Of a DNA stretch of 37,584 nucleotides, positions 232-36,050 are shown piece after piece; the stretch's first letter is position 1, and the number at the start of each line of letters is the position of its first letter. The notes under the pieces are model-generated. The model worked only from the letters and a program-made list of their open reading frames with translations. It ran no database searches and was not told the origin of the DNA. Made by a program: the position numbers and the translations under genes. This DNA comes from an uncultured cyanobacterium (lineage in GTDB: Bacteria > Cyanobacteriota > Cyanobacteriia > PCC-6307 > Cyanobiaceae): positions 1 to 37,584 of the forward strand of contig CAIOCZ010000088.1 in the NCBI GenBank assembly GCA_903856805.1, given 5' to 3'.

Positions 232-745
232 TCATCGTTGAGGCCATCTAAGGAGCTGGTACTTCTGCAGCCGGCTGTTGGGGGTATCCGGCAAGGTGTA
301 GCCGATCTCGTCTCGATCCAGGAGCTGGCGGATCGTGCGGTTGAGTGCCCCGGAGACGGCATCTCGCCCAAGGGCATGGGCAATTTCAGACTTACTCAAG
401 GGCCCGTCGGCCAGGGCTTGGAGCACGAAGTGGCCTAGTCCGCCCTCCGCCAGCGACTCTGCCCCTGGGCTGGGGAGCTGGGTTGGGCTAGGGGCAGAGT
501 CACCCGAAAACGCAGGCCTACCTCTTCAAACAGGGGTGGCGGCAGGTGTTGGCTGGCGGCTTCCTCCAGGATCACAGGGATACCACTGCCCCACTGCTCG
601 ATCAGGCCGAGTTCGCGGAACACGCGACTGATCACGCGATTGCGCAGGCGGCTGATTCCGCGGGGGAGATCTTCGAGGCTCAGGCCAGGAATCAGCACAC
701 CTGGGTTTTCAATTTCGATTCGGTCGTCAAAGGAGGGTTTGATCT
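232..745 (-). pseudogene. 3' remnant of AlbA_2/RecG-like ATP-binding regulator, frameshifted
   Basis: Read on the minus strand, the stretch from about 745 to 435 encodes a segment containing DDRIEIENPGVL and, further on, IEQWGSGIPVI. These are hallmarks of the C-terminal ATPase-like domain of AlbA_2 (DUF4062/RecG-like) transcriptional regulators. The matching C-terminal winged helix (LSKSEIAHALG to the end) lies at 426-232 but in another frame. The first frame stops at about 435, so a frameshift separates the two halves. The N-terminal half of the family, including the AlbA_2 domain, is absent; upstream of residue DDRIE the reading frame no longer resembles the family. I read it as a decayed remnant. 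Such regulators often accompany defence or mobile loci. Confidence 0.7.
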
Positions 746-804
746 GCGTGGGTTGTGAGCAACTCAATAGCGAATCTCGGCATATTAAACTGCTCATTAC
801 GGCA

Positions 805-1329
805 TCAAAGAAATTTGCGAAGATCAGGAGCAGCGCTAGCCGGCTTTTGCGCAGCGATAATTGCAGATCTGACGCCCCACGCTTTTTCCAATTTCTCCCT
901 ATCACGCTTGTCGATCTTGCGGGTCGAGACGATGACTGAACTCTCTCTGACTCGACGATTGATTGGGGCTAAGCTGGCTAAATGGGAAACGGCATCAGAA
1001 TACTCTTGCCTAGAATTAACAACAAAGGCTATCTGCTCATACGCATCTTCGAGATGACTTCCTTTCAGTTCAACCAATAAGACATCAATCTGATGAGATC
1101 GGAACAAGACGAACATCCCGTCACACTTCTTCCGATTGTCCGTGAAGACACATCCATCGAGGGCGACGGCAAGAGCAGCTTCGTTCTTCTTGGGCCTAAA
1201 GACAACGTGAATTCCCGCGTCCAGGAAGCACAGATCACCGCAGCAGAGATCGCAGGGCATCTTGTTTGCCAGGCAGATACATCGAGCCAGGTTTGCCGGG
1301 ACAAGAGCGGGCCGTGCTGATGTAGTCAT
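805..1329 (-). CDS. Small Cys-rich protein, candidate PD-(D/E)xK nuclease partner of the upstream ATPase
   Basis: A 174-residue protein starting three bases after the stop of the AAA ATPase gene, so the two are almost certainly co-translated. I do not recognise a named family. Visible features are a cysteine cluster near the N-terminus (C17, C19, C26, C29, C30, C34), suggestive of metal binding, then C60 and C69, followed by D70, a hydrophobic strand and E87-L88-K89-G90, with Q99 in the next helix. The order D - (E)xK - Q is the layout of PD-(D/E)xK nuclease cores, so DNA or RNA cleavage is a reasonable inference, though not shown. ATPase-nuclease pairs of this kind (for example Septu PtuA-PtuB, where the partner is HNH) act in phage defence. 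Its GC content is lower than that of the eCIS genes, consistent with separate acquisition. It could also be a non-enzymatic partner. Confidence 0.6.
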   Translation of the reverse strand: MTTSARPALVPANLARCICLANKMPCDLCCGDLCFLDAGIHVVFRPKKNEAALAVALDGCVFTDNRKKCDGMFVLFRSHQIDVLLVELKGSHLEDAYEQIAFVVNSRQEYSDAVSHLASLAPINRRVRESSVIVSTRKIDKRDREKLEKAWGVRSAIIAAQKPASAAPDLRKFL

Positions 1330-1332
1330 AAT

Positions 1333-2592
1333 TTAGCCTGCCTCTCCTTGAGAAGCCTTAAGCGCTTCCCACTCGAGATCACGCATCAAATCATAAAGAT
1401 GGGAGACATCATTGAAATTGTCGATAAGCGTGTCAGCAGTCAAACCCTCCTCTCTATCCATTAAATCAATCTGACTGTCGCGAGTAATTTGATAGACTGC
1501 TGTATCATTAGGATCAAGAGGATAAAGGTTGCGAATATGCGTCCAGTCCTCGCTTTCGCCGGATTTGGGAAGCAGCTTGTCGACAGCGAATCTCTTGAGT
1601 AGATTGTTTATGCCTTCAACAACAACTGAACTATGCGTTGTTAAGATAAACTGTGTATTAGGAAAGCACCTGAGCAGATCGGAGACAACTCTTTGCTGCC
1701 AAGCAGGATGGAGGTGAAGGTCAACCTCATCAATCATGACGATGGCCTCTGCCGCCAAGGGATCTTCCAAGTGGGGATTTGCGCCGGCCATACGCCAGCT
1801 AAGGTCGATGGCTAGGCCCAGCATTGTTTTGTATCCATCACTGAGTTGGTCGATCTCCAGCTCCTCGCCGTCCTGGCTGACGACAAAGCGCAAGGGATTA
1901 AGGGTGAACCTTGGATTTGAGAGATTTGGAAAGAGAGTTGTTATACATCTGCGAACAGCATTAAGTTCTGGCAATGTGGCATCAAAGTCTCGCCTTTCCT
2001 GTTTAAAACGGCTTTCTTCATTCTCCTTGTTGTAAAACCAGATCAAAGCCGAGCGAAACCTGCTAGTTGATTTGAGTGCATCAGCCAGGGATTCAAAGCG
2101 ACTGTGGTCTTTGGGAAAACCTCTCCTCCTCACGGGTGAGTAATCGAGCCATGCGCGGTTGACCCCATATTGAACGATCACGGGGAGTTGAAATGGTAAG
2201 CCAAGGTTCCATGGATCGAGGATTGATTCCTGAAGATAGCGGTGCAGCTGTTTGACCCCAAGTCCCGCTTTAATTTGTATGGCTGTCCTCTTGCTTTTGT
2301 CTCTCTTTTGCATCCGATCCCAGCCAACACCCGTGCTAGCAACAACCTTGATTCGAGTGTAGGGTGCAAGTTTTCCATCGTGTTGATGGATATCACCACG
2401 AGTCTTGAAGTCGATGCCTTTTACTTCTGGAAGATAGGTAAGAATTTCTCCGAGTGCGATAGCAATAGCATCCAGAAATGTGGTCTTGCCAGTACCATTT
2501 TCACCAATCAGCAGCGTCAGACGTGAGCCAAGCTCTAGGCAGCTGGAGGCTTTAGAGCGGAAATTGTCGAGGCTGACGTTTTTGAGCTTCAC
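1333..2592 (-). CDS. AAA ATPase of SMC/OLD type (COG3950-like)
   Basis: A 419-residue ABC-type ATPase. Walker A is GENGTGKT at residues 30-37. A signature-like SDGYK is at 251-255, Walker B ends with D288-E289 in IDEVDLHLHP, and the switch histidine is H320 in TTHSS. The short span between the motifs lacks the long coiled coils of SMC or RecF-type repair proteins. This matches the compact ATPases found in defence pairs. The start is GTG, 63 bases after the pglX stop, with no obvious Shine-Dalgarno sequence, and the stop is three bases before the small Cys-rich gene. Location after pglX, where pglZ would normally be, suggests that it was inserted into or replaced the tail of the BREX operon. 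The likely role is the sensor or motor half of an ATPase-nuclease module; this is inferred from context. Confidence 0.85.
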   Translation of the reverse strand: MKLKNVSLDNFRSKASSCLELGSRLTLLIGENGTGKTTFLDAIAIALGEILTYLPEVKGIDFKTRGDIHQHDGKLAPYTRIKVVASTGVGWDRMQKRDKSKRTAIQIKAGLGVKQLHRYLQESILDPWNLGLPFQLPVIVQYGVNRAWLDYSPVRRRGFPKDHSRFESLADALKSTSRFRSALIWFYNKENEESRFKQERRDFDATLPELNAVRRCITTLFPNLSNPRFTLNPLRFVVSQDGEELEIDQLSDGYKTMLGLAIDLSWRMAGANPHLEDPLAAEAIVMIDEVDLHLHPAWQQRVVSDLLRCFPNTQFILTTHSSVVVEGINNLLKRFAVDKLLPKSGESEDWTHIRNLYPLDPNDTAVYQITRDSQIDLMDREEGLTADTLIDNFNDVSHLYDLMRDLEWEALKASQGEAG

Positions 2593-2655: not shown

Positions 2656-5600
2656 TCACTCCTCCTTCGCCGCCAGCCCCGGGATCGGCGCAAGCACGTC
2701 CTGGAGTTTGAGGTAGTTCACCTTCACGCCATCATCGAGGTCCAGCTCGATGCGCTGCTGGGCCAGGGGCAGCAGCGCATCCTGTTCCCAGGTTTGGCAG
2801 TCCTTGAGCACCTTGGTGATTTTTTCGGCCTCCTTGCGGGCGGCGGTGCGGTCGCGGCTGGGGAGGGAATCGTTGAGTTGATCGAGGCCGAGCTGGGCTT
2901 GGCGGGCTTCCAGTTTCTGCAGGTAGGGGCGGAAGTAGTTGTTGAGAACGAGGTTGAGGGTGTCTTTGGTGTAGCGGTGCAGGTAGATCAGGCAGGCGAA
3001 GCCACCCCTTGAGGGGCCAGCGGGGCTTTGCACCAGCCAGTAGATCGGGCGTTTTTTGTAGGTTTGCAGGTGATCTTTGTAGAAGTCGCTGCAGAAATAT
3101 TTGCGGAGGTCTTTGCCGAGGGCGGTTTCGATGAAGGCCAGATCGGTGTTGAGGGAGCTGGCGGGGAAGGTGACGCGCAGGAACTCGCGGCTGCGGGCGA
3201 CGATGTCGTCTTCAAACCACTCGCCATCGAGCACGGGGATGATGCCGTCGTTGTCGGGTTGGAAGCTGAGATCGCCAGTGCTTTTGCCGACTTTGGCGAC
3301 GTAGTTCTCCAAGGTGTCGCCGGCATTGGCGAGGATCAGGCCGGGGTGATCGAGGCTGTAGCGGCCCATCATGCAGCCGGTGGCGTAGGAGAGAAATGCC
3401 GCTACATCTTTACGTTGATCGGCGCGGGCGAGGGTGATTTGATCTTCAGGCACTTCGGGTTGTAACTCGCCGTCGAGGCCATAGGCGGCGATTAAGAGTT
3501 GGTTGTTCTCCGTCTCCAGCCCCTGCATTCGGCGAATAGCATCGCTGCATTGCGCCTCCAAATTCCGCCAGCTCGCCTCTAGAACTAGCTGTATCATTGC
3601 TGCCCTGAGCAAAGGTAGGTCTTTGAAATCCCAGGAGGTCTCGACGTTGTCCCAGTCAGCGTTGGCGATTTCAACGAGTTCTCCAATGATCGGCGATATG
3701 ATCTGGTGATCCAGCAGTGCCGCTGGGATTGATTTAAAATCACCTACTCCAAAGCTGACGCTTGGATTTAAGATCTTAGTTACATGTGCGGCGAACACGC
3801 TATTGCACAGTGAAAGTATTTGCTCCGCTGAACAGCCTGGAGAAGGGAAGGCCATCATGCCTTTGATATTAGACGTAAAACCTGAAGGATAGGCCCGGAA
3901 AGAAGTAGCTGCGGTGGTTATCTCGGACCAGGAAATGAACGGCGAGAAGTAGTAGCCATCATCGTGTACCACAAAGTTGGGGTTGCCGTTTAGGTAGGGG
4001 TATTTCTCCAAGACCAGAGCTTTTATCCGCTCACCGTTGTTTCCCCAGTCAACTAAATATTCCCTATTCCCGGCCCACTTCCTAAAGGCTCCACCCTTAT
4101 TGTGCGGAAACCATTTCTTTTGGCTTTCCTGAGCTTCAAGGCTTGTAGTGGCTGAATAGCAAGTATTTGATATACCCACCTCCCACCAAAAGCGCAAGAA
4201 TAGTTCGTTGTCAGATGTCATCAGTCCCACCCTTGCGTTAACACACTGTCCGAGTGGTTGACACTTCTCAAACAGATGCAAGATCTTTTCGCCCGTCCAG
4301 TATGCAAAAGGGCTCCCAGGCATCTTGCTAAAGTCTGCCGCAGCGACCGCGTACAAATCTCCCTTCGCGACCTTGTCAAAGAACACTTTTTGTTTATCTG
4401 TGGACTGTGGAACGTCGTTCAGATTCAGATAACGTCCATCCATCTCGATCGAAGAATTGCAGAGGACGAAGGCACATGCTTGGGCTATCTTTGAATTCAT
4501 CTCTGGAAAGCTGTTGTAGCCGATTTGCATAAGCGTGATCGGCGGACTGGCATTAATTAAGCGTTCCCGAAGTTTTTCAAATGAAGAGAGGAACATCCAT
4601 GCCTGCATGGTCACCATTGACAGAAGCCCATGAGGCAAGGCAAGTTTTGTGTTTCTGTCGATGAACATGGCGAACAAGTCTGCCTTTGAATCTGAATAGG
4701 ATGCTTTTGCAAATGCCTTCAGTTTCGCATTCATTGCACCGCCTCCCAAATACGGCGGATTAGCCACGACGATGTGATACCGCTGGGTGAGCGCCTCGGC
4801 ATGTTCGAGTACGCGCAGGACTTTGAGGTGCGTCTCGCGCAAGAAGATCTGACCGCCGAGGTCTTTTGCATCGATGGCTCGGCGCATGTTGGCGATGGCC
4901 CGTTCATCGAGACACGGCTGGATGAGAGATCCGAAGTTCTTCGCCTCCTCGAACTGGTGGAGCAGCTTGAATAGGTTTGGATCGAATAGCTCACCGAGGT
5001 CGAGTGCATCGATATAGTCGTTCAGCTCGCCTTCTTCAAATCGCACATCCTGCAGCTCGATGATCTGGGGCTGCACCAGCTGTCCTGGCTGGAAGAAACG
5101 ACGCGATTGTTCCCGGGCCTTGAGTACTAAAGCCAGACCAGCCAACTGGGCTGCGCGAGGGCAAATGTCCAGCCCATAGAGATTGTGCTGCAGGATCAAT
5201 CCGGGGATTTCAGCCGCCGCATAGCCTTCCTCTGTGTAGATGTGGCTGAGCAGATCAAAGGCATAGGTGAGCATGTGCCCGCTGCCACAGGCGGGATCCA
5301 GCAGTTTGATGTCTTCTGGTTTGGTGATCTGTAGAAAGTCGCTTTCTGCTTCCCCTTCGATGTAGTACGGCATCTGGTCTCGCAGCTTCGACTCCGGCCG
5401 GTTCAGCAGCCAGAGCCGCCCCAGTGAGTTCTCCACCAGATAGTGCACGATCCAGTGGGGCGTGAACAGCTGGGTGACAGCCGGGATGTCCTCAGAAGGC
5501 ACCGCTTTCTTGCGGGCCATCACCTCATCTTTCTTTTCGGCGATATAGAACTGATACAACCAGCCCAGAATCTCGACGTCCTCGCAATCGCCGTCGCTGA

Positions 5601-6183
5601 TCTCACGGCGAAACCCGCCAGCAATCGAGCCATCACTGAGCAGGTCGTCCGGCAACAACAACTCGCTGGCATCATCCAGCCCTTCAAACAGATTCGGCAG
5701 CAGCTGGTGATAGGAGCGGCACACCGCCAGGATCAGCTCGCGATACACCTCCCCCTGGGGATCGGCGCCGGCCGTGGCCGTGGGGAGCCGGCCATCGAGC
5801 AGGCCCTGCAAGCGCGCCTCATCCGTGTGGGGTTGCAGTTCAGCGGGCAGGCTGCCGCTGCGCAGCAGTTTCAGCACTTCGGGCTGGGTTTCTGACTCCG
5901 TCTGCGCCATCAACACCCTGGCGCCGAAGGGATGCCAACCCCGGGCATCGAGATAACGCAGTGCCGCCAGGCGGTTGAACCAGCTGTAGGCCACCCGCTC
6001 CAGCAGCTCCTGGCGATTTGTTGCCTCCTGCTGCCGCAGCTCCTCGATCGGGCCGGCGGCGGTGGTCAGCGTGTCGGCGCTGGCCTGGTGCAGCAACAGG
6101 TCCAGCTTGCGGCCCACCGCCTCGATCAGCTGCCGCCGCATCGCCGGGGCGAAGGTCTTGAGGGCGGCGGTGTTGACGGGCAT
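2656..6183 (-). CDS. pglX: BREX-1 adenine-specific DNA methyltransferase PglX
   Basis: A 1175-residue N6-adenine methyltransferase that marks host DNA at the BREX site and is needed for phage restriction in type 1 BREX. Motif I is D296-PACGSG, which binds S-adenosylmethionine, and motif IV is N475-PPY, the catalytic loop. The N-terminal helical region (QELLERVAYSWFNRLAALRY) and full length match the family. The segment from about residue 483 to 870, the region expected to carry target recognition, is clearly lower in GC than both flanks, suggesting specificity exchange by recombination. The ATG at 6183 has no good Shine-Dalgarno sequence. Its partners brxA, brxB and brxC lie 24 kb upstream on the same strand. 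A second copy of this gene's first 30 or so codons lies at 7048-6951. Confidence 0.95.
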   Translation of the reverse strand: MPVNTAALKTFAPAMRRQLIEAVGRKLDLLLHQASADTLTTAAGPIEELRQQEATNRQELLERVAYSWFNRLAALRYLDARGWHPFGARVLMAQTESETQPEVLKLLRSGSLPAELQPHTDEARLQGLLDGRLPTATAGADPQGEVYRELILAVCRSYHQLLPNLFEGLDDASELLLPDDLLSDGSIAGGFRREISDGDCEDVEILGWLYQFYIAEKKDEVMARKKAVPSEDIPAVTQLFTPHWIVHYLVENSLGRLWLLNRPESKLRDQMPYYIEGEAESDFLQITKPEDIKLLDPACGSGHMLTYAFDLLSHIYTEEGYAAAEIPGLILQHNLYGLDICPRAAQLAGLALVLKAREQSRRFFQPGQLVQPQIIELQDVRFEEGELNDYIDALDLGELFDPNLFKLLHQFEEAKNFGSLIQPCLDERAIANMRRAIDAKDLGGQIFLRETHLKVLRVLEHAEALTQRYHIVVANPPYLGGGAMNAKLKAFAKASYSDSKADLFAMFIDRNTKLALPHGLLSMVTMQAWMFLSSFEKLRERLINASPPITLMQIGYNSFPEMNSKIAQACAFVLCNSSIEMDGRYLNLNDVPQSTDKQKVFFDKVAKGDLYAVAAADFSKMPGSPFAYWTGEKILHLFEKCQPLGQCVNARVGLMTSDNELFLRFWWEVGISNTCYSATTSLEAQESQKKWFPHNKGGAFRKWAGNREYLVDWGNNGERIKALVLEKYPYLNGNPNFVVHDDGYYFSPFISWSEITTAATSFRAYPSGFTSNIKGMMAFPSPGCSAEQILSLCNSVFAAHVTKILNPSVSFGVGDFKSIPAALLDHQIISPIIGELVEIANADWDNVETSWDFKDLPLLRAAMIQLVLEASWRNLEAQCSDAIRRMQGLETENNQLLIAAYGLDGELQPEVPEDQITLARADQRKDVAAFLSYATGCMMGRYSLDHPGLILANAGDTLENYVAKVGKSTGDLSFQPDNDGIIPVLDGEWFEDDIVARSREFLRVTFPASSLNTDLAFIETALGKDLRKYFCSDFYKDHLQTYKKRPIYWLVQSPAGPSRGGFACLIYLHRYTKDTLNLVLNNYFRPYLQKLEARQAQLGLDQLNDSLPSRDRTAARKEAEKITKVLKDCQTWEQDALLPLAQQRIELDLDDGVKVNYLKLQDVLAPIPGLAAKEE

Positions 6184-6482
6184 GGAGGGGGGGCGGGTGT
6201 GCAGGACAAGGCATGGGCCAGCAGGGCCTGGCGCTCGACCTCTGCTACGGCGCTGCTCCAGCCCTTGAGATTAGGTGCCGCTCCATCAGCAGCAATGCCG
6301 CTGCCCACCACCACGATCTCGCCGCACTGATCGCCCCCCCGATCGCCACCGATGTTGCCACTGTGATCGCCGTCATCGCCTAGGCTTCAGCAACTGAAAA
6401 TGAGAGAAACAGAGTTGCGCGAAGAGCGGCAATTAGCATTCCACCCTTTATATCAACACTGCTGCCAAGCACCTTATCTTAA
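6184..6482. other. Intergenic region between pglX and the transporter pseudogene
   Basis: About 300 bases between two divergent reading frames. It should hold the pglX promoter now that pglX is cut off from brxABC, but I see no strong -35/-10 pair. The part next to pglX is GC-rich with G-runs and short repeated GATCG motifs, while 6385-6480 is AT-richer. No gene is supported here. Confidence 0.4.
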
Positions 6483-6920
6483 ATGAGCCCAATCCCCGCC
6501 CTGCCGCTTTAGTTTACCTGGGCTTTTTTATCTGCGCTTTTTGGAACGGTATCTGCGGTAATTGGCAGGATTGGACTCGAGAGTGTCGATGCTGATCTAG
6601 CCACCCTAATCCGCACCATTGTCATCGCGATCTTTCTGCCATTGCTCATTCTAGCAACCGCAAAATTAAGCAGACCATTCGCGTTATCCCAGCAAGCTTG
6701 GCTATTCATTGTGCTTTCGGGTCTGGGCAGTGGCTTATCATCGTTCTGCTTTTTTAGAGCCCTGAAGCAAGGGGACGCTTCGTTAGTCGTGCCCGTTGAT
6801 CGACTAAGCCTGATGGTGGCTTTAGTAGGCTTTGCTTTTCTTGGTGAACGCCCTTCGGTGATGGGCTGGGCAGGCTTGCTGTTTGTCGCTGGGGGCGGAA
6901 TACTCTTATCGCTTGCGTAG
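6483..6920 (+). pseudogene. EamA-type small DMT transporter with amber codon 10
   Basis: Reading from the ATG at 6483 gives a 145-codon frame that encodes a half-size drug/metabolite transporter of the EamA (COG2510-like) group. It has roughly five hydrophobic segments, including WAFLSALFGTVSAVIG near the start and WAGLLFVAGGGILLSLA at the end. Codon 10 (6510-6512) is TAG, and no ATG, GTG or TTG follows in frame before the first membrane segment. The first usable start is TTG at 6642, which would remove two membrane segments. Homologues normally begin right before the TWAFLSA-like sequence, so the start codon itself may have been lost. Composition is lower in GC than neighbours. The gene is wedged between the intact pglX and the pglX 5' duplicate and points the opposite way. 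Confidence 0.75.
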
Positions 6921-6950
6921 TTGCCAAGCCGGTCTGCGGCATTCGGCATG

Positions 6951-7048
6951 GCAGCAGAAGATCCAGCTTGCGGCCCACCGCCTCGATCAGCTGCCGCCGC
7001 ATCGCCGGGGCGAAGGTTTTGAGGGCGGCGGCATTGACGGCTATGGGG
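6951..7048 (-). pseudogene. Duplicate of the pglX 5' end, start codon lost
   Basis: This 98-base stretch is nearly identical to 6090-6187, the first 30 or so codons of pglX, differing at only about ten positions. In translation it preserves KTFAPAMRRQLIEAVGRKLD. The ATG start has become ATA and the frame diverges after the LDLL codons. It is therefore the 5' stump of a second pglX on the same strand, located on the brxC side of the intact gene. It may be what is left of the original pglX of the operon, or the scar of a tandem duplication. It cannot encode a methyltransferase. Confidence 0.85.
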
Positions 7049-7133
7049 GGTTTGGGGGTGGTGCGGGAGAAGGTGGTGGGTTCTGGCTAGGCTCATTTCG
7101 TCGTTGTGGTCCGGTGGTTTGCCGGAGCGTCCG

Positions 7134-7343
7134 ATGGGCTCAGACCTGCTCAACCTGCCCCTGCCCCAGCGCCTGGAACTTGTGCAGGACCTGTGGGATT
7201 CGATCGCCGCAGAGCAGCAGGGTCCTGCCGCCAGCCTGCAGGAGCAGCGGCTGGTGGCCGAACGGCTGGAGGCCTTCCGCCAGGACGGGCACCCCGGCGA
7301 GGATGCCCTGAAGCTGTTGGAGGAGCTGGAACAGGCACTCTGA
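7134..7343 (+). CDS. Addiction module antitoxin (TIGR02574-like)
   Basis: A 69-residue protein with LPLPQRLELVQDLWDSI near the N-terminus and LKLLEELEQAL at the end, the pattern of the short helical antitoxins of ParE/RelE-type modules. I chose the ATG at 7134; a longer frame from 7104 adds ten residues without family character. It lies 26 bases upstream of the toxin gene in the same direction and should neutralise that toxin and repress the pair. No lesion is visible. Confidence 0.8.
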   Translation: MGSDLLNLPLPQRLELVQDLWDSIAAEQQGPAASLQEQRLVAERLEAFRQDGHPGEDALKLLEELEQAL

Positions 7344-7369
7344 CAGGGCGCTAAATCGCGGTTGCACCC

Positions 7370-7672
7370 ATGCGGGTTCTGATACGCCCAGAGGCGCGAG
7401 ACGATCTCCGCAACGCTTCGGCTTGGTATGCCAAGCAGGGTCCTGGTCTGGGCCTTAGCTTTCTGGCCGCCATTCGCCAGCAACTGCTGCAGATCAGGGA
7501 GAGACCGGAAGCCTTCCCAATTTTTCAAAGCCAAACCCGCCGCGCTCTGATCAAGCGCTTCCCCTACGGAATCATCTTCCTCGTGCAGCGTGACCAGGAA
7601 CGCATCATCGTCCTGGCTGTCCTGCATTGTGGCCGGGACCCGCTTCTTTGGCAGGCACGATCGCAGTTTTGA
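7370..7672 (+). CDS. ParE/RelE-family toxin
   Basis: A 100-residue toxin of the ParE/RelE superfamily. Visible family features are the N-terminal RPEARDDLRNASAWY helix, the central ERPEAFPIF turn, and the C-terminal strands with RRALIKRFPYGIIF and VLAVLHCGRDPLLW. ParE members act on DNA gyrase and RelE members on ribosome-bound mRNA; the sequence resembles ParE more closely, but the target is inferred. It is paired with the antitoxin directly upstream. The pair appears complete in a strip where every neighbour is broken, which fits selection by addiction. Confidence 0.85.
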   Translation: MRVLIRPEARDDLRNASAWYAKQGPGLGLSFLAAIRQQLLQIRERPEAFPIFQSQTRRALIKRFPYGIIFLVQRDQERIIVLAVLHCGRDPLLWQARSQF

Positions 7673-7733
7673 GTTCAGCATCCCCAGCCCTTCGATGATC
7701 AGCTGATCCTTCTCAAGGATCGAGGGCGCCAGA

Positions 7734-7916
7734 TCAGTCAACGAGCAACCACAGGGCCTCACGGCCGCCAGCCACCGCCTCGCAGCTCAGGCGGCGATCG
7801 AAGCTCACCAGCCGGCCGCCGTGGTGCACCGCCAGGGCCAGCAGGGCGATCAGCACGTTCACATCCAGCAGGGCCGGGCCCATGGCTGGTCGTTGCCCCA
7901 GCTGTTCCTGGCTCAT
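7734..7916 (-). pseudogene. VapC-type PIN toxin with internal deletion
   Basis: The 60-codon frame begins with an ATGA overlap with vapB and reads LLDVNVLIALL, the N-terminal PIN strand with its first catalytic aspartate. It then jumps directly to ALAVHHGGRLVSFDRRL, which is the C-terminal part of a PIN domain. A normal VapC has about 130 residues, so roughly the middle half, with the central acidic residues, is missing in frame. The junction lies in the similar sequences gccctgctgg/ccctgg, which suggests a slippage or short-repeat deletion. The product is unlikely to be an active RNase. Confidence 0.8.
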
Positions 7917-8662: not shown

Positions 8663-8784
8663 CGCAGCCAGGTCAATTACCCTGCTGCTCGTGGGATTGC
8701 GCCGGCCGCCCCGGTGCCATCGTGGATCTTCCTCGTCACACCCCGTCAGCGACTGCCTGTCCAAAGCAACAACCGCTTGCTCCG

Positions 8785-30018: not shown

Positions 30019-33000
30019 TCACAGGCTGATCCGATGCCCTTGGTCGAGCTCCCTGCGGGCCGCCGCGCCCAGGGCCTCCAGCCACTGCTGCAGCTCCGCC
30101 TCGTTGGTGATCTGGCTCAGCGGGCAGTCCACCTTCAGGGCGGAGTGCGCCACCACCGTGATTGGTGTGGCAGTGGCTGTCTCGGGAGGTGCCGTCAGCG
30201 CTGCCATCCGTTGGAGCTGCTTGGGCACCTCCTCGGCTTGGTAGCGGTTCACCCGCATCAGCACCCTGCCCGGCTGGCTGGCGGCCTGCACATCAGCCTT
30301 CGCCCGCGTCGTGGCCGCCAACACCTGCTCTTGTTGCTCCCGCTCCAGCTTCTGGAAATCGGTCGTGGCTTTCAGGCGATGTTCCTGGGCCTTGATCTGC
30401 TCCAATGCTTCGGTTTGAACCTGCTGTAAGCGCTCGCTCAGCAGACCCTGCAGCGCCGTCATGGCGTTGTTGGCCTGGGGGATCAGCCCACCGGCAAAGG
30501 GTCTGTCGCTGGCCAGAAGGCTTTGCAGCGGCTGCACGTGCTCGGCGGGTAGATCCGCAAACTCCTCGCCGTAGCGGGCCTCGAAAGCCCGCACCTGGTC
30601 GAACACCGTTTTCTGATTGCCCTTGAGGAACTGCTTCAGGGGGGTAAGCAGGTCTTCTTCGAGATCCAGCCAGCTGTCCTTGAAGGTGCCCAGCTGGTTG
30701 AGCAGGTAGCCGTCGTCCTTCTTGGCCATCGCTTCGGCCTGCTCGGCCCAGGGTTTCACCGCTGCCAGGAAGGGGTAGTTGGACGCCTGGGCTGCGATCT
30801 CCCGCAACTCCTGCGCCTCGTCGGCCATCGCCATGCGGAAGGCTTCGCAGCTGCTGCGGGCATCGGTGCCAGGACTCTGCACGTTGAACAGCTCCTGGTG
30901 GAAGCGCTTCAGGGCGTCGATCGCGCTGGTATCGAACTGGTCCTGCTTGCGCACGCTCACCCCCCCCAGCCGGCGGCTGTTGATGAGCGCCTCGATCACC
31001 TCCACGCTGCTGAGCAGTTCCTTCTCCCGCAGCTCCAGCTTTCCGAGCCGATACAGCCGGGCAATGAAGGTGAGGGTGGCCCAGTTGCTCCAGCCATAGG
31101 GGCGCCCCTCAAACTTGCGCACCAGGTCGTCCGCGCTGAGGCGCTCGCCCAGCTTCTGCTGGCGCTCCACATTCACCAGCACCTCCTGCTCCGCCTCAGA
31201 CAACTGCACCGCCAGGCCATCGAGCAGGTCGTCCTGGTCGCGCACCACCTGGGCCACGGTGGCCTCGCTGAAGTTGCCGCGAATCATCTTCAGCTTGGGG
31301 AAGGCCGAGCGGATCAGCTCCTGGTAGGCCTTGCTGAAGCGGGTCTTGGGATCGCCCTCCCCCACCGACAGGGTCTGGCCATTCACCACCAGCGGAGCGG
31401 TGCGCAGGAGCTCCTCGGCTTGGCGGCTGATCTCCTGGCGCCGGGTGCTGTTCTGCCGAGCCCGCACCGCCAAGATCGCGTTCAGGGCTTCGTCTTCGCT
31501 GCCGCTGTTCTGGCGGATGTAGAGGTCGGTTTTGAGGTGGCTGCGGATCTGATCGAGCAGCCGATCCTTCGCCGGCAGGATCGCCATCAGCTCGGTGCCG
31601 CCCATGTTGCGGCTATGGAGGATCGCCTCGTTGCCGTAGTTGGGGTGCTCGGGGGTCACCAGGTTCACCATCACGTCGGTGTCACGTCCCTTGATCAGGC
31701 CGTCGTCGATCTTCTGGGCGAAGGAGTAGTCGTTGCCGTTATCTTCGAAGCGGATCTTGTTGGTGCGCAGCACATCGTCGAACACCACGCCATGCAGGGT
31801 TTTCACCACCATCGAATCCGACACCTCAACCCGCTTGATCTCCTGCTCCACATCCTTTTCCTTATCGGTGAGGAACTCATAGATCTCACCACTGCGCTGC
31901 AGGTAGCTCTGGCTCTCGAGGTTGATCAGGGCCTCCTTCACCGCCTGCTCATGGGCGCGGATGTCGAAGTTGGGCTGATTGATTAACAAAATGGCGATGT
32001 TGCGCGCCGTGCCCTTGAACTGCGGCACCCACTTGAGCAGGAACAGGGCCTTCAGGAGGCGCAGCTCCAGCTCGCCCACCTGGTTCTGGGCGGTCACCAT
32101 CGTCTGCTGTTTGTCGGCCCGGATCACATCGCGGATGCCGTCGTAGAGCTGGTCAAAGCTGGCCAGGCGCCCCACCGGCAGTTCCTTGATCGCCTTGGCC
32201 ACTTCCTGAAACACCGAGAGCATCGAGCGTTCGCCCACGGCCATATTGCGACCCTCAAAAATGCTGTGGGTCGCCAGGGTTTGAATCGCGGTCTGGAACA
32301 GACTCAGCTGGTAGGGGTGGAAGGGGTAGAGCCCGCAGAAGCTCTGGCAGTCGCCCCAGCCCTTGAGCTGAATTGAGCCATCGCTGAAGCGATACAGGGT
32401 GGTGAAGTTGTCCTTCTCCTGCTCGTAGATCGACATCAGCTGCTCCGGTTCCTCCGGGGCCTTGGCCAGCAGGCGCCGCTGGATCACCTCCTGCACATCG
32501 GCACTGGCCAGGGTGAGCTTGGTCTTGAAGCGGCCCTGGATCTTGCTCAGGTCGTCCGCCTGCTCAAACTTCACCTGGCCCAGGATTCCCTCCAGGTCGG
32601 CCTGGGAGGTGATGAACACCGTGGCCCGCCCATCGGTGGCCGTGGCCAGGCTCTCCACCACGGTCTGCAGGTTGAGCAGGCGGCTGCGCTCCTGGCCGAT
32701 GAACTGGCCCGCCTCATCCACGAAGAAATTGAGCCGGAAACCCGGCGGCTGGCTGGCGAGGTAGTCCTTCACCCGGCCGGCGAAGCCCTCGATCGAGAGC
32801 CGGTAGCTGTCCTTGGCGTCACTGACTACTTTTATGGCGTCGTCTTCGCTGCCGCCGAACTGCTCGGCATAGGCCTTGGCGAAGCTGCGCTTGGTGACGG
32901 TGGCCAGGGCATCACGGTCGTTGTCCCAGCTGCGGCCGTTCACCCGCTGGTAGGTCTGCTGGAACGCCTCGAACTGGCCGCGCTTGTTGAGGTCGTGCTC

Positions 33001-33519
33001 AAACTGGGCCACGTAGCCCTGGTTGCCGTAGTAGCCCTGCAGCTCATTGAGCACCTTCATGAACACCTCGAGGATCGGTGCCTCGTGGGTGCCGCCGATG
33101 CCATCGAACTTCTGATCGATGTTGAACAGCAGGCTGCGGGCCGGAATCCCAGCGGCCTTTTTGAGGTCGGCGCGAATGATCTCGTCCTCTACTTTGGGCA
33201 GCAGGATCTCCACCGGCCGCCTGTCCTGCTCGCCAGCCTGTTCTGAGGGGACGCGCTTCTCGCCATCCAGCATCAGCGACAGCATCTTCAGCAGGTGCGA
33301 CTTACCCGATCCGAAGAAGCCCGAGATCCACACCCCATTGGCGGTGGGGTTGTGCAGGTAGGCCTCGGTGAACGCCCCCAGGCCCTTGCTCACCTCCCGG
33401 GTCACCACATACTCATCGAGTTCGACCTGCAGATGGCGCTCGTCGTCGGCCTTGATCACGCCGTCGATCGGGCGATCCACCGGTTTGGCGAAGAGCCCTT
33501 GGATGGTGGAAGCGGTCAT
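30019..33519 (-). CDS. brxC: BREX P-loop ATPase BrxC
   Basis: A 1166-residue BREX core ATPase. Walker A is G67-FFGSGKS-74 and Walker B ends with D268-E269 in LNFFVDEAGQF. The N-terminus (TIQGLFAKPVDRPIDGVIKAD) and full length are those of BrxC/PglY. In type 1 BREX it is required for host methylation and for blocking phage replication. It overlaps brxB by four bases. Normally pglX follows at once; here the next 24 kb are the eCIS and scarred sequence. No frame lesion is visible. Confidence 0.95.
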   Translation of the reverse strand: MTASTIQGLFAKPVDRPIDGVIKADDERHLQVELDEYVVTREVSKGLGAFTEAYLHNPTANGVWISGFFGSGKSHLLKMLSLMLDGEKRVPSEQAGEQDRRPVEILLPKVEDEIIRADLKKAAGIPARSLLFNIDQKFDGIGGTHEAPILEVFMKVLNELQGYYGNQGYVAQFEHDLNKRGQFEAFQQTYQRVNGRSWDNDRDALATVTKRSFAKAYAEQFGGSEDDAIKVVSDAKDSYRLSIEGFAGRVKDYLASQPPGFRLNFFVDEAGQFIGQERSRLLNLQTVVESLATATDGRATVFITSQADLEGILGQVKFEQADDLSKIQGRFKTKLTLASADVQEVIQRRLLAKAPEEPEQLMSIYEQEKDNFTTLYRFSDGSIQLKGWGDCQSFCGLYPFHPYQLSLFQTAIQTLATHSIFEGRNMAVGERSMLSVFQEVAKAIKELPVGRLASFDQLYDGIRDVIRADKQQTMVTAQNQVGELELRLLKALFLLKWVPQFKGTARNIAILLINQPNFDIRAHEQAVKEALINLESQSYLQRSGEIYEFLTDKEKDVEQEIKRVEVSDSMVVKTLHGVVFDDVLRTNKIRFEDNGNDYSFAQKIDDGLIKGRDTDVMVNLVTPEHPNYGNEAILHSRNMGGTELMAILPAKDRLLDQIRSHLKTDLYIRQNSGSEDEALNAILAVRARQNSTRRQEISRQAEELLRTAPLVVNGQTLSVGEGDPKTRFSKAYQELIRSAFPKLKMIRGNFSEATVAQVVRDQDDLLDGLAVQLSEAEQEVLVNVERQQKLGERLSADDLVRKFEGRPYGWSNWATLTFIARLYRLGKLELREKELLSSVEVIEALINSRRLGGVSVRKQDQFDTSAIDALKRFHQELFNVQSPGTDARSSCEAFRMAMADEAQELREIAAQASNYPFLAAVKPWAEQAEAMAKKDDGYLLNQLGTFKDSWLDLEEDLLTPLKQFLKGNQKTVFDQVRAFEARYGEEFADLPAEHVQPLQSLLASDRPFAGGLIPQANNAMTALQGLLSERLQQVQTEALEQIKAQEHRLKATTDFQKLEREQQEQVLAATTRAKADVQAASQPGRVLMRVNRYQAEEVPKQLQRMAALTAPPETATATPITVVAHSALKVDCPLSQITNEAELQQWLEALGAAARRELDQGHRISL

Positions 33520-34130
33520 GAGCTCTTGATGTCGAAGTAGTCGAGGTTGGTGGCGCGGTAATGCGGGTTTTCGATCTTGCTGGCGGTTGTGGTGCCAAAC
33601 AGCCGCAGGTAGGAGCCGCCGTCGGCGTCCTGGGAGTACTCGCCGGGAAAGAAGATCACCACCGGGTGGCGCACCATCGCCGGTTGCAGCGCTTCCAGGA
33701 TCGTGTGGGTGCGCAGGAACGGATAGATCCGCCCAGAGCCGGTGATCAGGCTGATCTGGGTGTCGTTCCCCAGGGCCTCCATCAGCTTCGGCACCAGGGC
33801 TGAGGTGGGTTCGGCCACGTTCTGCAGGGTGTCGAACAGGTCGCCCTTGCTCCAGCTCGCTTCCTCCTGCAACACCACATCCAGGTAGCCCTTGGCCTCC
33901 AGCAGCTGCAGCACCAGCTCAAACAGATCCACCTGCTTCACCCGCAGCCCCTGCTTGCGCAGGAACTGCTCGGCACCCTTCACCACCACCCGCAGCTGGT
34001 CTTCATCGGCGGGGCTGTAGGTCTGGATGAAGATCGGCACCTCCTTGGCAACGCCCCGCATCTCCAGGAACTCAGGGCGGGTGAGGACCTCCTGCAGGCG
34101 CTTGTCGAGGCCGGTGACGCTGCTGCTCAT
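33516..34130 (-). CDS. brxB: BREX protein BrxB (DUF1788)
   Basis: A 204-residue DUF1788 protein; family features include FIQTYSPADEDQLRVVV, LLEAKGYLDVVL and the ending HPVVIFFPGEYSQDADGGSYLRLFG. BrxB is an essential small component of type 1 BREX whose biochemical activity is unclear. It overlaps brxA upstream (ATGA) and brxC downstream by four bases each, so the three genes form one translationally coupled unit. Confidence 0.93.
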   Translation of the reverse strand: MSSSVTGLDKRLQEVLTRPEFLEMRGVAKEVPIFIQTYSPADEDQLRVVVKGAEQFLRKQGLRVKQVDLFELVLQLLEAKGYLDVVLQEEASWSKGDLFDTLQNVAEPTSALVPKLMEALGNDTQISLITGSGRIYPFLRTHTILEALQPAMVRHPVVIFFPGEYSQDADGGSYLRLFGTTTASKIENPHYRATNLDYFDIKSS

Positions 34131-34795
34131 GGCGCAGTACCCCCAGTCCTGGCCCTGCGCTGACGCTCCGGGGTGCGCAGAAAACCGCTCAGCAGAGCTG
34201 GGTCGTCGTCCTCCACCAGCTGTTGAGCCCGGGGAGAGAGGGAGGGTCGCTGAACCGTGCCGAGAATCCCCCCCCTGGTCGCCTTGCCCGCCAGCAGCCC
34301 CGCGTCCCGCAACATTTTGAGAAGGGCGGAGCGGATCTTCTGCTGGGAGGAAGGGGAGAGGGCCGCGAGTTCAGGGTGGTCGCGTTCACAGGCCGCATAG
34401 AAGGCCGCCATGTCCGAACGGCGCAGTTCAAGGTCCTGGCTGCTCAGTTTCCCGTCCAACACCTCCCGGGCCAGGTCCGCCGCGATCTCAATCCGCTTCA
34501 GCACCGCCAGCCAGGCCATGGCACTTCGCTCCTCGCTCGATCCCCTCGCCAGCAATTGGATCTGGGGTGCGTTCAGGCGCTGCAGCCGCTGGCGCAGCTC
34601 CGATTCAAGCCGCTTGCCCGTGCTGGCCGAGCGGGCCTGCAGAGCATTGCGTTCCAGCACTGTGGCCTTGGTTCGGGGCCAGTCGCCCTGCTCCTCCAGG
34701 TGGATGGCCGCGATCACAGCAGCCAGCTCAGGCCTCAGGCCTGCGGCCGTGAAGCTCAGGGAGTAGCGGGGCGCCTGCGGCGCTGAGCGGGGCAA
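34127..34795 (-). CDS. brxA: BREX protein BrxA (DUF1819), start uncertain
   Basis: A DUF1819 protein of about 222 residues; RYSLSFTAAGLRPELAAVI at the start, STGKRLESELRQRL, and LRDAGLLAGK near the end match the family, which is a small DNA-binding BREX component. The start is unclear. The only good Shine-Dalgarno/ATG pair (AAGGAG, then ATG at 34806) is out of frame by one base and leads to a stop after 16 codons. In frame, the first usable codon before the conserved region is TTG at 34795, 16 bases from AAGGAG. Either TTG is used or a one-base shift has occurred close to the start. The open frame runs on upstream to 35221, but that part is the shadow of arsM. Confidence 0.85.
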   Translation of the reverse strand: MPRSAPQAPRYSLSFTAAGLRPELAAVIAAIHLEEQGDWPRTKATVLERNALQARSASTGKRLESELRQRLQRLNAPQIQLLARGSSEERSAMAWLAVLKRIEIAADLAREVLDGKLSSQDLELRRSDMAAFYAACERDHPELAALSPSSQQKIRSALLKMLRDAGLLAGKATRGGILGTVQRPSLSPRAQQLVEDDDPALLSGFLRTPERQRRARTGGTAP

Positions 34796-34997
34796 CGAAA
34801 GGACATGGAAACTCCTTGCCAATCCTGGCACTCGGCTGGGGGCGATGACCGCCAAGTTGCCCGTCTCCGTATGGCGTTGATCGCCAGAACCTATGCGCAG
34901 GGTGCATAGAAATGACCTCAGCAAGTAGCTGAGTGCCCCGCCATGCGCAGCTGCTCCATCCATCGGTTGGTGGCGAAACACGGAACGCCAGCCAGCC

Positions 34998-36050
34998 TCA
35001 ACAGCAGGAGCCACCCGCTGCCGCGCCCCCGTCAAAGGGCAGGACGGACCCGCAACCCTCGAACAGGCCGTAGTGACGGCTGAAATCACCGATGAAGTCG
35101 AAATGGGGCGATAGACGGCTGCCCGCGAGCATGCGGAAAGTGTTGCCGCACACCGGAAACACCTTGCCGGCCCCGATCCAGTGGTGCTTGTCGAAGGGCA
35201 GGGCGTGGGGGTGTTCGGCAATCGTGCCGCGGTAGATCACCGCCTGACCGTGGTCTTCGCAGGCGTCCTCCAGCTCAGGGAGATGGAACAGTCGATAGGT
35301 GGCGGAGAAGAAGCGGATCGGGCCGGTGCGGGCGGTGAGCGCCGCATCGGTGATCTCCAGGGGCCGGTCGCTCACCAGGCGGGGATCGGCGAAGCCGGCC
35401 CGGCGGGCCAGGCGCAGGAAATCGTTCCAATAGAGGGCGCCACTGAGGCATTCGCCGTAGAGCACCGGATCGTGGCGCAGCGCCTCGGGCACGCGCCGGT
35501 CGGCATAGACGTCCGCGAAGAAGAACTCACCGCCGCTCTTCAGCAGACGCCGCACCCCGTTCAGCACGGCCAGCTTGTCGGTCGAGAGGTTCACCACGCA
35601 GTTGGAGATCACCAGATCGAAGCTGCCGGGCTCCAATGGCAGCTGCTCCAGCTGCTCGATGCGGCCCTCCAGAAACTCCACGTTGGCGAAGCCGAACCGT
35701 TCGGCGTGGTGCTGCTGGTGCCGCCGGGCCACCGCCAGCTGCTCCGGCGTCATGTCCACGCCCACCACCGAACCAGCCGCACCCACCAGCTGGGCCAACA
35801 GATACACATCGCGGCCGCTGCCGCAGCCCAGATCCAGCACCCGCAGTCCCTCCAGCAACGGTGGCATCACCAGCCCACAGCCGTAGTAGCGCGACAGCAC
35901 CTCGGGGTGGATGCGGGCCAGCAGCGGACGCAGGGCCTCGGGAACGCTGCTGGCGTCACAGCAGGCGTCGGTGCGCAGATCGGCGCTGCTGCTGAGGGTG
36001 GCGCCGTAATACTCCTGCACGCCGCGGCTCAGGTCGGGGGAGGTCGTCAT
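34998..36050 (-). CDS. arsM: Arsenite S-adenosylmethyltransferase ArsM
   Basis: A 350-residue SAM-dependent methyltransferase that converts As(III) to methylated arsenicals. SAM motif I is VLDLGCGSGRD at residues 71-81. C151 (in ISNCVVNLS) and C201 (in YGECLSGA) are 50 residues apart, the spacing of the As-binding Cys174 and Cys224 known in the algal enzyme. C30/C31 (DACCDASS) and C58 may supply the others. The chain ends in GGSCC, a Cys pair also seen in many ArsM. I chose the ATG at 36050; ATGs at 36080 and 36251 extend into sequence without family features. It is unrelated to BREX, and its neighbour on the other side is transcribed divergently. Confidence 0.9.
   Translation of the reverse strand: MTTSPDLSRGVQEYYGATLSSSADLRTDACCDASSVPEALRPLLARIHPEVLSRYYGCGLVMPPLLEGLRVLDLGCGSGRDVYLLAQLVGAAGSVVGVDMTPEQLAVARRHQQHHAERFGFANVEFLEGRIEQLEQLPLEPGSFDLVISNCVVNLSTDKLAVLNGVRRLLKSGGEFFFADVYADRRVPEALRHDPVLYGECLSGALYWNDFLRLARRAGFADPRLVSDRPLEITDAALTARTGPIRFFSATYRLFHLPELEDACEDHGQAVIYRGTIAEHPHALPFDKHHWIGAGKVFPVCGNTFRMLAGSRLSPHFDFIGDFSRHYGLFEGCGSVLPFDGGAAAGGSCC

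Follow-up and report, generated by a model that had tools for sequence, protein, structure and literature searches.

Several described defence systems combine an ATPase with a small nuclease, and they provide the closest counterparts of a two-gene locus found at positions 805–2,592 of contig CAIOCZ010000088.1 (assembly GCA_903856805.1) of an uncultured cyanobacterium from the family Cyanobiaceae. The whole contig, 37,584 nucleotides long, was analysed and is referred to as the window; its source genome is in 185 contigs. In WonAB, an ABC ATPase is followed by a small nuclease, both genes are needed, and the substitution K71A in WonB abolishes function (PMC12137116). PD-T4-4 (Vassallo et al. 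2022, PMC9519451) consists of an ATPase and a PD-(D/E)xK-type partner (PMC12137116, PMC10952713), and in Septu the ATPase PtuA is accompanied by the HNH protein PtuB. OLD-ABC ATPases with alternative nucleases (HNH, PD-(D/E)XK, PIN) have also been reported in bacteriophage exclusion (BREX) loci (594 taxa) and proposed to be back-up effectors (Rakesh and Krishnan 2026, PMC12839542).

The window pair is most probably a two-gene back-up defence module of the abortive-infection type, a sensor ATPase with a nuclease, embedded in a type 1 BREX operon; the probability of this interpretation is put at about 0.72. It builds on the gene order, the BREX context, the conserved catalytic residues, the head–tail hybrid nature of the ATPase, and the different heads found over a near-identical tail and nuclease. 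Since OLD-ABC ATPases with alternative nucleases have already been reported in BREX, the pair belongs to a known kind, and with an OLD-ABC ATPase and a PD-(D/E)XK restriction endonuclease within a BREX locus it resembles the modules of PMC12839542. In contrast, the first part of that paper's section on these modules mentions neither a PtuA head on a foreign tail nor head exchange, and the terms "PtuA", "Septu" and "cyanobacteri" are absent from its main text (supplements were outside the scope). No description of the hybrid ATPase or of head exchange was found in the literature searched, from which supplements, preprints and most subscription papers were excluded.

The pair and its BREX operon

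Two open reading frames (ORFs) on the minus strand, 3 bp apart and with the ATPase gene first, make up the pair, as outlined in a preliminary description made from the sequence alone. They are listed together with the BREX genes of the same strand.

1333–2592, minus strand: ATPase gene, coding for a 419-residue OLD/ABC-type ATPase, GTG start (Pfam AAA_21, 6.7e-25; PADLOC PtuA, 3.6e-90; ABC motifs)
805–1329, minus strand: putative nuclease gene, 174 residues, ATG start; putative PD-(D/E)xK protein of the PDC-M29B / WonB-like family
2656–6183, minus strand: pglX (brxX), BREX-1 adenine methyltransferase gene directly upstream of the pair (NCBIfam BREX_1_MTaseX, 1230 bits; PADLOC PglX)
30019–33519, minus strand: brxC (NCBIfam BREX_BrxC, 989 bits)
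33516–34130, minus strand: brxB (Pfam BrxB, 1e-27)
34127–35221, minus strand: brxA (Pfam BrxA, 8.1e-32, residues 152–336); within the listed ORF, the true start is probably located around residue 150
250–905, minus strand: HATPase_c_4 gene downstream of the pair, near the contig end (Pfam, 7.1e-24), broken into two pieces in different frames

In the window, the pair is part of a type 1 BREX operon. The order on the minus strand is brxA, brxB, brxC, pglX, the ATPase–nuclease pair and the broken HATPase_c_4 gene, and pglZ of the window genome is located on another contig, C139. The PglZ query began with about 50 residues foreign to PglZ, to which a second hit is ascribed. The order brxA-brxB-brxC-pglX-ATPase-nuclease-pglZ is unbroken in two relatives, L109 and L110, where PglZ of both and BrxC, PglX and BrxL of L109 were identified by Pfam, and the other genes by their likeness to window genes. 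In L010 and L011, the pair follows pglX and is separated by further ORFs from pglZ (PglZ by Pfam); L010 retains only the 3' end of pglX. In total, the pair lies inside BREX in five of the seven close-family loci (the window, L010, L011, L109 and L110), and six more loci retain the two-gene order, namely these four relatives, L111, and L112, in which the nuclease match is split over two frames. Among 299 genomes of the order, eight were matched, the window genome included: six at an identity of at least 34%, the other two at 23–28%. A scan of genome contigs for homologues gave two loci.

The preliminary description had proposed a new ATPase–nuclease defence pair. A defence pair is likely; the claim of novelty does not hold, as WonAB, PD-T4-4 and the BREX modules are published. 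Both the BREX operon and the hybrid PtuA-head ATPase had been missed.

Head and tail of the ATPase

The ABC motifs noted earlier in the ATPase were located in order: Walker A (residues 30–37), signature LSDG (250–253), Walker B (284–289), D-loop region (292–296) and H-loop (318–321). The best PADLOC model of the protein is PtuA of Septu (301 bits; E = 3.6e-90), which matches residues 1–326 only and is covered at positions 1–352 of 455. The NCBIfam PtuA model gives 197 bits, which is under its 500-bit cut-off. The protein can be divided at the H-loop as follows.

1642–2592, minus strand: ATPase head of the Septu PtuA lineage, residues 1–317, cut before the H-loop; it differs sharply between relatives
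1333–1641, minus strand: ATPase tail, predicted nuclease dock, residues 318–419; of a type carried by ATPases that accompany this nuclease family

Profiles cut at the H-loop were compared by hhalign for seven close-family ATPases, 29 cyanobacterial PtuA proteins and 29 ATPases whose partners belong to the wider nuclease family; the tail comparison thus concerns wider-family ATPases and not WonA. The close-family heads aligned with those of PtuA over 307 columns (P = 100; E = 7.5e-75) versus 59 columns with those of the wider-family ATPases, which places the head outside the lineage of the family's other ATPases. The close-family tails aligned with the wider-family ones over 92 columns (P = 97.7; E = 1.4e-12), versus 12 columns with PtuA, representing the H-loop alone. 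When the H-loop and eight more residues were removed, the tail match became weaker but held, with P = 87.9 and E = 3.3e-6 for the wider family and P = 0.12 for PtuA. Judging from these profiles, the ATPase reads as a Septu PtuA head on a non-PtuA tail of the kind that accompanies this nuclease, the likeness of the tail being moderate.

Two sets of scores weigh against this assignment of the tail, as they make its likeness without the H-loop look modest. The wider-family profile reached 9.0–21.1 bits on the seven close-family tails (shuffled tails, at most 7.1 bits; PtuA, at most 5.8 bits). In the opposite direction, the close-family profile on the 29 wider-family tails gave 18.7 bits at best, a median of 8.6 and −0.4 at worst, so that some fell below the best shuffle (6.4 bits; PtuA, at most 4.2 bits).

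The pair shares with WonAB its motif plan and gene order, an ABC ATPase and then a small nuclease, and WonB is predicted to dock on a C-terminal extension of its ATPase (PMC12137116). The catalytic lysine occupies position 71 in WonB and 89 in the longer window protein; in related proteins from viral contigs it is residue 70 (L116) or 67 (L117). As in other OLD-ABC + PD-(D/E)xK pairs of the WonAB type, the small partner lies directly behind the ATPase and carries a conserved D...E-x-K...Q motif. The window locus differs from WonAB in the PtuA lineage of the head, in an extra N-terminal cysteine segment of the nuclease and in its BREX location, and WonA and WonB are likened to it by plan, not by sequence. 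From Septu, with which it shares head residues 1–326, it differs in that the HNH protein PtuB is replaced by a PD-(D/E)xK-type protein and the PtuA tail is missing. Both the partner, which has no HNH or PtuB match, and the non-PtuA tail rule out plain Septu.

Such a partner is exceptional among the cyanobacterial PtuA loci read. The PtuA model matched 48 of 292 genomes at E ≤ 1e-30, and the best loci of 30 genomes, one per genome, were read. The next gene was an HNH PtuB in 28 of them, assigned by PADLOC models (PtuB or the retron HNH form) in nine cases and by eye in 19; one of the 28, L086, has no Pfam HNH match, yet shows a clear PtuB match. PtuB was lost in one locus (L074), and the 174-residue nuclease was found only in the window. 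The window genome also contains a separate ordinary Septu (L113), whose partner was assigned as PtuB or the retron HNH form by a PADLOC model. Homologues of the ATPase occur in 19 plasmid records, six of which were opened: HNH partners are annotated in those of Bacteroides, Rhizobium and Zymomonas, the partners in those of Enterobacter and Annamia look HNH-like by eye, and no HNH partner was evident in the Rhodococcus record. In the Enterobacter plasmid (L099, 6001–7999), a PtuA-like ATPase and its HNH-looking partner are flanked by the S and R genes of a type I restriction locus; Septu thus nests in other systems too.

The direction of the change was examined in a tree of heads comprising 50 rows and rooted on wider-family ATPases (13 of them in the set), with five long or unclear rows out of 55 omitted. 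In two row sets, HNH-partnered PtuA proteins grouped apart from the close family of the window in 0 of 200 bootstrap trees. The approximately unbiased (AU) test on the 50 rows, which speaks against a graft, left a single clade of HNH-partnered PtuA unrejected (p = 0.17); the value was p = 0.040 without two more long-branch rows (seven of 55 omitted), a choice made after the first tree. A grafting of the PtuA head onto another tail is taken as the likelier order of events, as far as these alignments go. The reverse order would make the tail and nuclease of the window ancestral, with Septu acquiring its HNH partner and the corresponding tail later. The unrejected clade favours this order, as does the presence of the tail type on many OLD/AAA_15-like ATPases, but the bootstrap trees and the test on the smaller row set oppose it, and it is considered unlikely, although worth keeping in view.

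The 174-residue protein and the proposed working

Two features of the small protein bear on its function.

1033–1122, minus strand: predicted active-site codons D70 ... E87-L-K89 ... Q99, from residue conservation in 48 ORFs
1243–1281, minus strand: C17-x-C19-x6-C26-x2-C29, possible metal site, from conservation in close relatives

Both the N-terminal cysteines and the D70...E87-x-K89...Q99 arrangement had been pointed out in the preliminary description, and the retention of the gene pair and the motif in relatives shows that neither of these two is due to chance. Among 48 distinct ORFs, counted with no filter for the motif, all 46 ungapped rows have E87 and K89, while D70 is found in 43 of 46 and Q99 in 45 of 47. 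Earlier conservation and adjacency counts had used a motif filter that favours D, E and K, and the residue count was redone without it; the ORFs were still picked by profiles from earlier rows, and seven of 66 loci were dropped (no covering ORF or profile match). The motif residues are retained in relatives down to about 18% identity. A lack of D70, E87 and K89 in relatives would have refuted the preliminary proposal, which thus withstands this check. This D/E-x-K/Q conservation is the pattern of PD-(D/E)xK nucleases and marks a predicted active site.

The protein contains cysteines at positions 17, 19, 26, 29, 30, 34, 60 and 69. The C-x-C-x6-C-x2-C pattern is common to the window and five distinct intact close relatives, and the broken L009/L112 copy has a histidine at position 26, i.e., in place of the third cysteine. 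The N-terminal segment may be a metal site, which such a histidine would suit. In the wider family, C17 is frequent (35 of 48), with C26 found in 6 of 48 and C29 in 7 of 48.

In agreement with the preliminary description, no HNH or PtuB match was found for the partner in Pfam, NCBIfam or PADLOC. It has no Pfam or NCBIfam family match at all; no named family had been recognised for it, but there is a weak match to PADLOC PDC-M29B (E = 6.5e-4 and 17.8 bits, in a library that gives no cut-off), and in an alignment containing the window nuclease this model matches 12 of 15 members. While this is the likeness to the PADLOC candidate system PDC-M29, the ATPase PDC-M29A has another type of head: L012 scores 639.8 bits on the PDC-M29A model, which is absent from the best 25 of the 190 PADLOC families listed for the window ATPase. 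A close relative of the window nuclease, L005, matches PD-T4-4_B at E = 3e-4, whereas the window nuclease has no PD-T4-4_B match at E < 1. The preliminary comparison with Septu or Gabija stands for Septu through the PtuA head; Gabija was rejected, with no TOPRIM among the Pfam matches of the ATPase and no helicase (UvrD-like GajB) match for the partner.

The relatives of the nuclease are mostly 140–200 residues long, broken pieces aside. An ATPase-type ORF lies directly upstream in 35 of the 40 distinct partner ORFs of the motif-filtered set (Walker A is visible in 32 and cut by the locus edge in three), and these counts place the small protein in a family whose genes follow those of OLD/ABC-type ATPases. 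Among 386 genomes of the phylum, 26 have PDC-M29B-like genes and 26 have matches to the window-family profile, the two sets overlapping. The plasmid records contained no homologue of the window nuclease at E 0.01, and one record from Bacteroides matches the wider-family nuclease. The phage records gave two distant matches to a wider-family nuclease, and PHROGs two weak matches of one member each. In viral contigs, there was no match for the close family or the PDC-M29 type, but two wider-family loci were found, one of which (L117) is a full ATPase–nuclease pair. This IMG/VR contig carries, at 2667–4387, a pair of the WonAB plan, with a 432-residue ATPase and a 140-residue E-L-K nuclease overlapping by one base.

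Several results temper the nuclease assignment. Two AlphaFold2 runs gave a predicted local distance difference test score (pLDDT) of 37 and 40, too poor to use. Foldseek gave no match at E < 0.001, its best hits (E 0.0096) being unrelated clamp loaders, and profiles of the nuclease found no sequence match in the PDB better than E 0.2; those at E 0.2–0.7 look like chance. In addition, D70 is absent in a few wider-family copies (L016 has E, L018 has G), and the protein may thus be inactive in some cases; the remaining exception, L006, is a fragment of the broken copy in L112. In a five-row AlphaFold2 model, strands 70–77 and 80–88 are followed by a helix, as they would be in a PD-(D/E)xK core, and FokI (rank 6) and Shedu (rank 13) appear in the Foldseek output at E above 0.1; neither result was counted as support.

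From the kinship and architecture of the pair we infer a complex, a trigger, a substrate and an abortive outcome. The ATPase would dimerise through its ABC sites, and its Septu-type head would sense a signal produced by infection, perhaps a phage product that blocks BREX. The tail would hold the 174-residue nuclease via a dimeric C-terminal dock, as predicted for WonA–WonB, and the activated nuclease would cut nucleic acid through the D70/E87-x-K89 metal site and stop the infected cell. WonAB aborts infection by a shutdown of translation, while the genomic DNA stays intact (PMC12137116); by this analogy, RNA (tRNA or rRNA) seems a slightly more likely target than DNA. Septu and retron nucleases have been reported to act on DNA or, elsewhere, on tRNA, so the substrate is not readable from kinship, which weakens this part of the scheme.

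The locus could instead be an unusual Septu, with an ATPase that functions like PtuA and a nuclease directed at phage or nicked DNA, RNA playing no part. PD-(D/E)xK enzymes are mostly DNases, and the PADLOC and NCBIfam scores of the PtuA head also agree with such a function. Likewise, E. coli Septu PtuAB reportedly targets nicked DNA (account given in PMC11555353). On the other hand, the partner has no PtuB or HNH match and the ATPase no PtuA tail, WonAB, the closest tested relative in plan, leaves DNA intact (PMC12137116), and some retron and Septu PtuAB act on tRNA-Tyr (PMC11555353; PMC13096335). An unusual Septu is thus regarded as improbable, yet deserving of attention.

A further alternative, somewhat more doubtful, is that the pair functions as a component of this BREX type, recruited by BREX proteins and providing no independent back-up. 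In four relatives it has the same orientation as pglX and pglZ and lies between them, and in the window it directly follows pglX, as would be expected of such a component. However, L111 and L112 place the pair outside BREX (19 kb read), and the heads of the window and L010 differ although the shared pglX 3' end, which is all that L010 holds, is 92% identical in DNA. The location of L111 and L112, two of the seven close-family loci, also tells against the embedded back-up module as a general description of the family; wider relatives were read with a flank of about 1.5 kb, too short to settle BREX membership.

Head exchange and the variable operon

For protein identities, heads and tails were cut at the end of Walker B. 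The window and L010 are 55% identical in the head, 98% in the tail and 95% in the nuclease. In DNA, they share 95.8% identity from window position 1746 downwards and 92.4% at the pglX end, and blastn found nothing between. The window head is closest to that of L110 (76%), the tail and nuclease of which are 64% and 49% identical to those of the window, respectively, and the L010 head groups with the heads of L011 and L109 (72–75%). The head and tail of the ATPase have different histories, as far as these identities tell. Given head identity of 55% over tail and nuclease identities of 95–98%, heads seem to have been exchanged, most simply by recombination around Walker B. An artefact of assembly, with chimeric contigs, is very unlikely: the genome of L010 was assembled from a metagenome and that of the window is fragmented, but both ATPase frames are open across the junction, the L010 head is a copy of none of its relatives, and L011 repeats the pattern against the window (head, 53%; tail, 92%).

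Two observations caution against reading head exchange as specific to the ATPase. The identities between the window and its relatives are 57–65% for pglX and 71–85% for pglZ, so variability extends beyond the ATPase head. Moreover, the middle of pglX is only 30–37% identical to three relatives in most 100-column blocks, with ends at about 65–93%; this middle is a probable exchangeable target-recognition region. A bolder interpretation, offered tentatively and at somewhat less than even odds, is that of a BREX sensor-exchange module: a Septu head would have been joined to a WonA-type tail and nuclease, and heads swapped since by recombination, with tail and nuclease kept constant. The tail and nuclease together would then be an effector plug-in and the head an interchangeable phage receptor, with the pglX middle perhaps an analogous reader of DNA.

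To our knowledge, what many Septu- and WonAB-like ATPase heads sense, and how the effector is chosen, is largely open. A natural hybrid with a clear head–tail border, together with near-identical tails under different heads, marks where the sensor may end and the effector dock begin, and the ATPases of the window and its relatives are ready pairs for swap experiments. The pair is also a concrete case for the proposal of back-up effectors in BREX loci. With a likely Septu sensing part and a likely WonAB-like cutting part, it suggests that alarm sensors and weapons are freely recombined by bacteria. If head exchange is mere operon mosaicism without a change of trigger, the pair is of no more value than any other accessory pair.

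The HATPase_c_4 gene is an inconstant companion of the pair, as nuclease–pglZ gaps of 153 and 109 bp in L109 and L110, respectively, leave no room for it. The intact copy in L011 has a Fic-like C-terminal domain as well. The window gene may be a remnant of a Schlafen-HATPase effector such as those described from BREX loci.

Between brxC and pglX, at 8722–29671 on the plus strand, the window contains a contractile-injection-type cluster (sheath, tube, hub, gp25 and PAAR by Pfam). In L109 and L110, brxC and pglX are adjacent, and in L011 just an AbiE-like pair lies between them (the brxC end by eye); the BREX operon of the window thus looks split by the cluster. A 110-nt direct repeat, 88% identical, at 6090–6199 and 6951–7060 copies the start of pglX outside the gene, on the side facing the cluster, and is perhaps a trace of rearrangement. 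The ORF at 6509–7762 (minus strand) begins like the AbiEii gene of L011, which is Pfam-confirmed; it has no Pfam match of its own and, by eye, is probably a wrecked AbiE toxin gene. A ParE-type toxin gene is located at 7370–7672 on the plus strand (Pfam, 4.2e-11). Finally, BrxL of L109 (15211–17307) has a C-terminal domain resembling phospholipase D (Pfam MIT_C), which may correspond to the HKD-nuclease C-terminus described for some type 1 BrxL proteins (PMC12839542).

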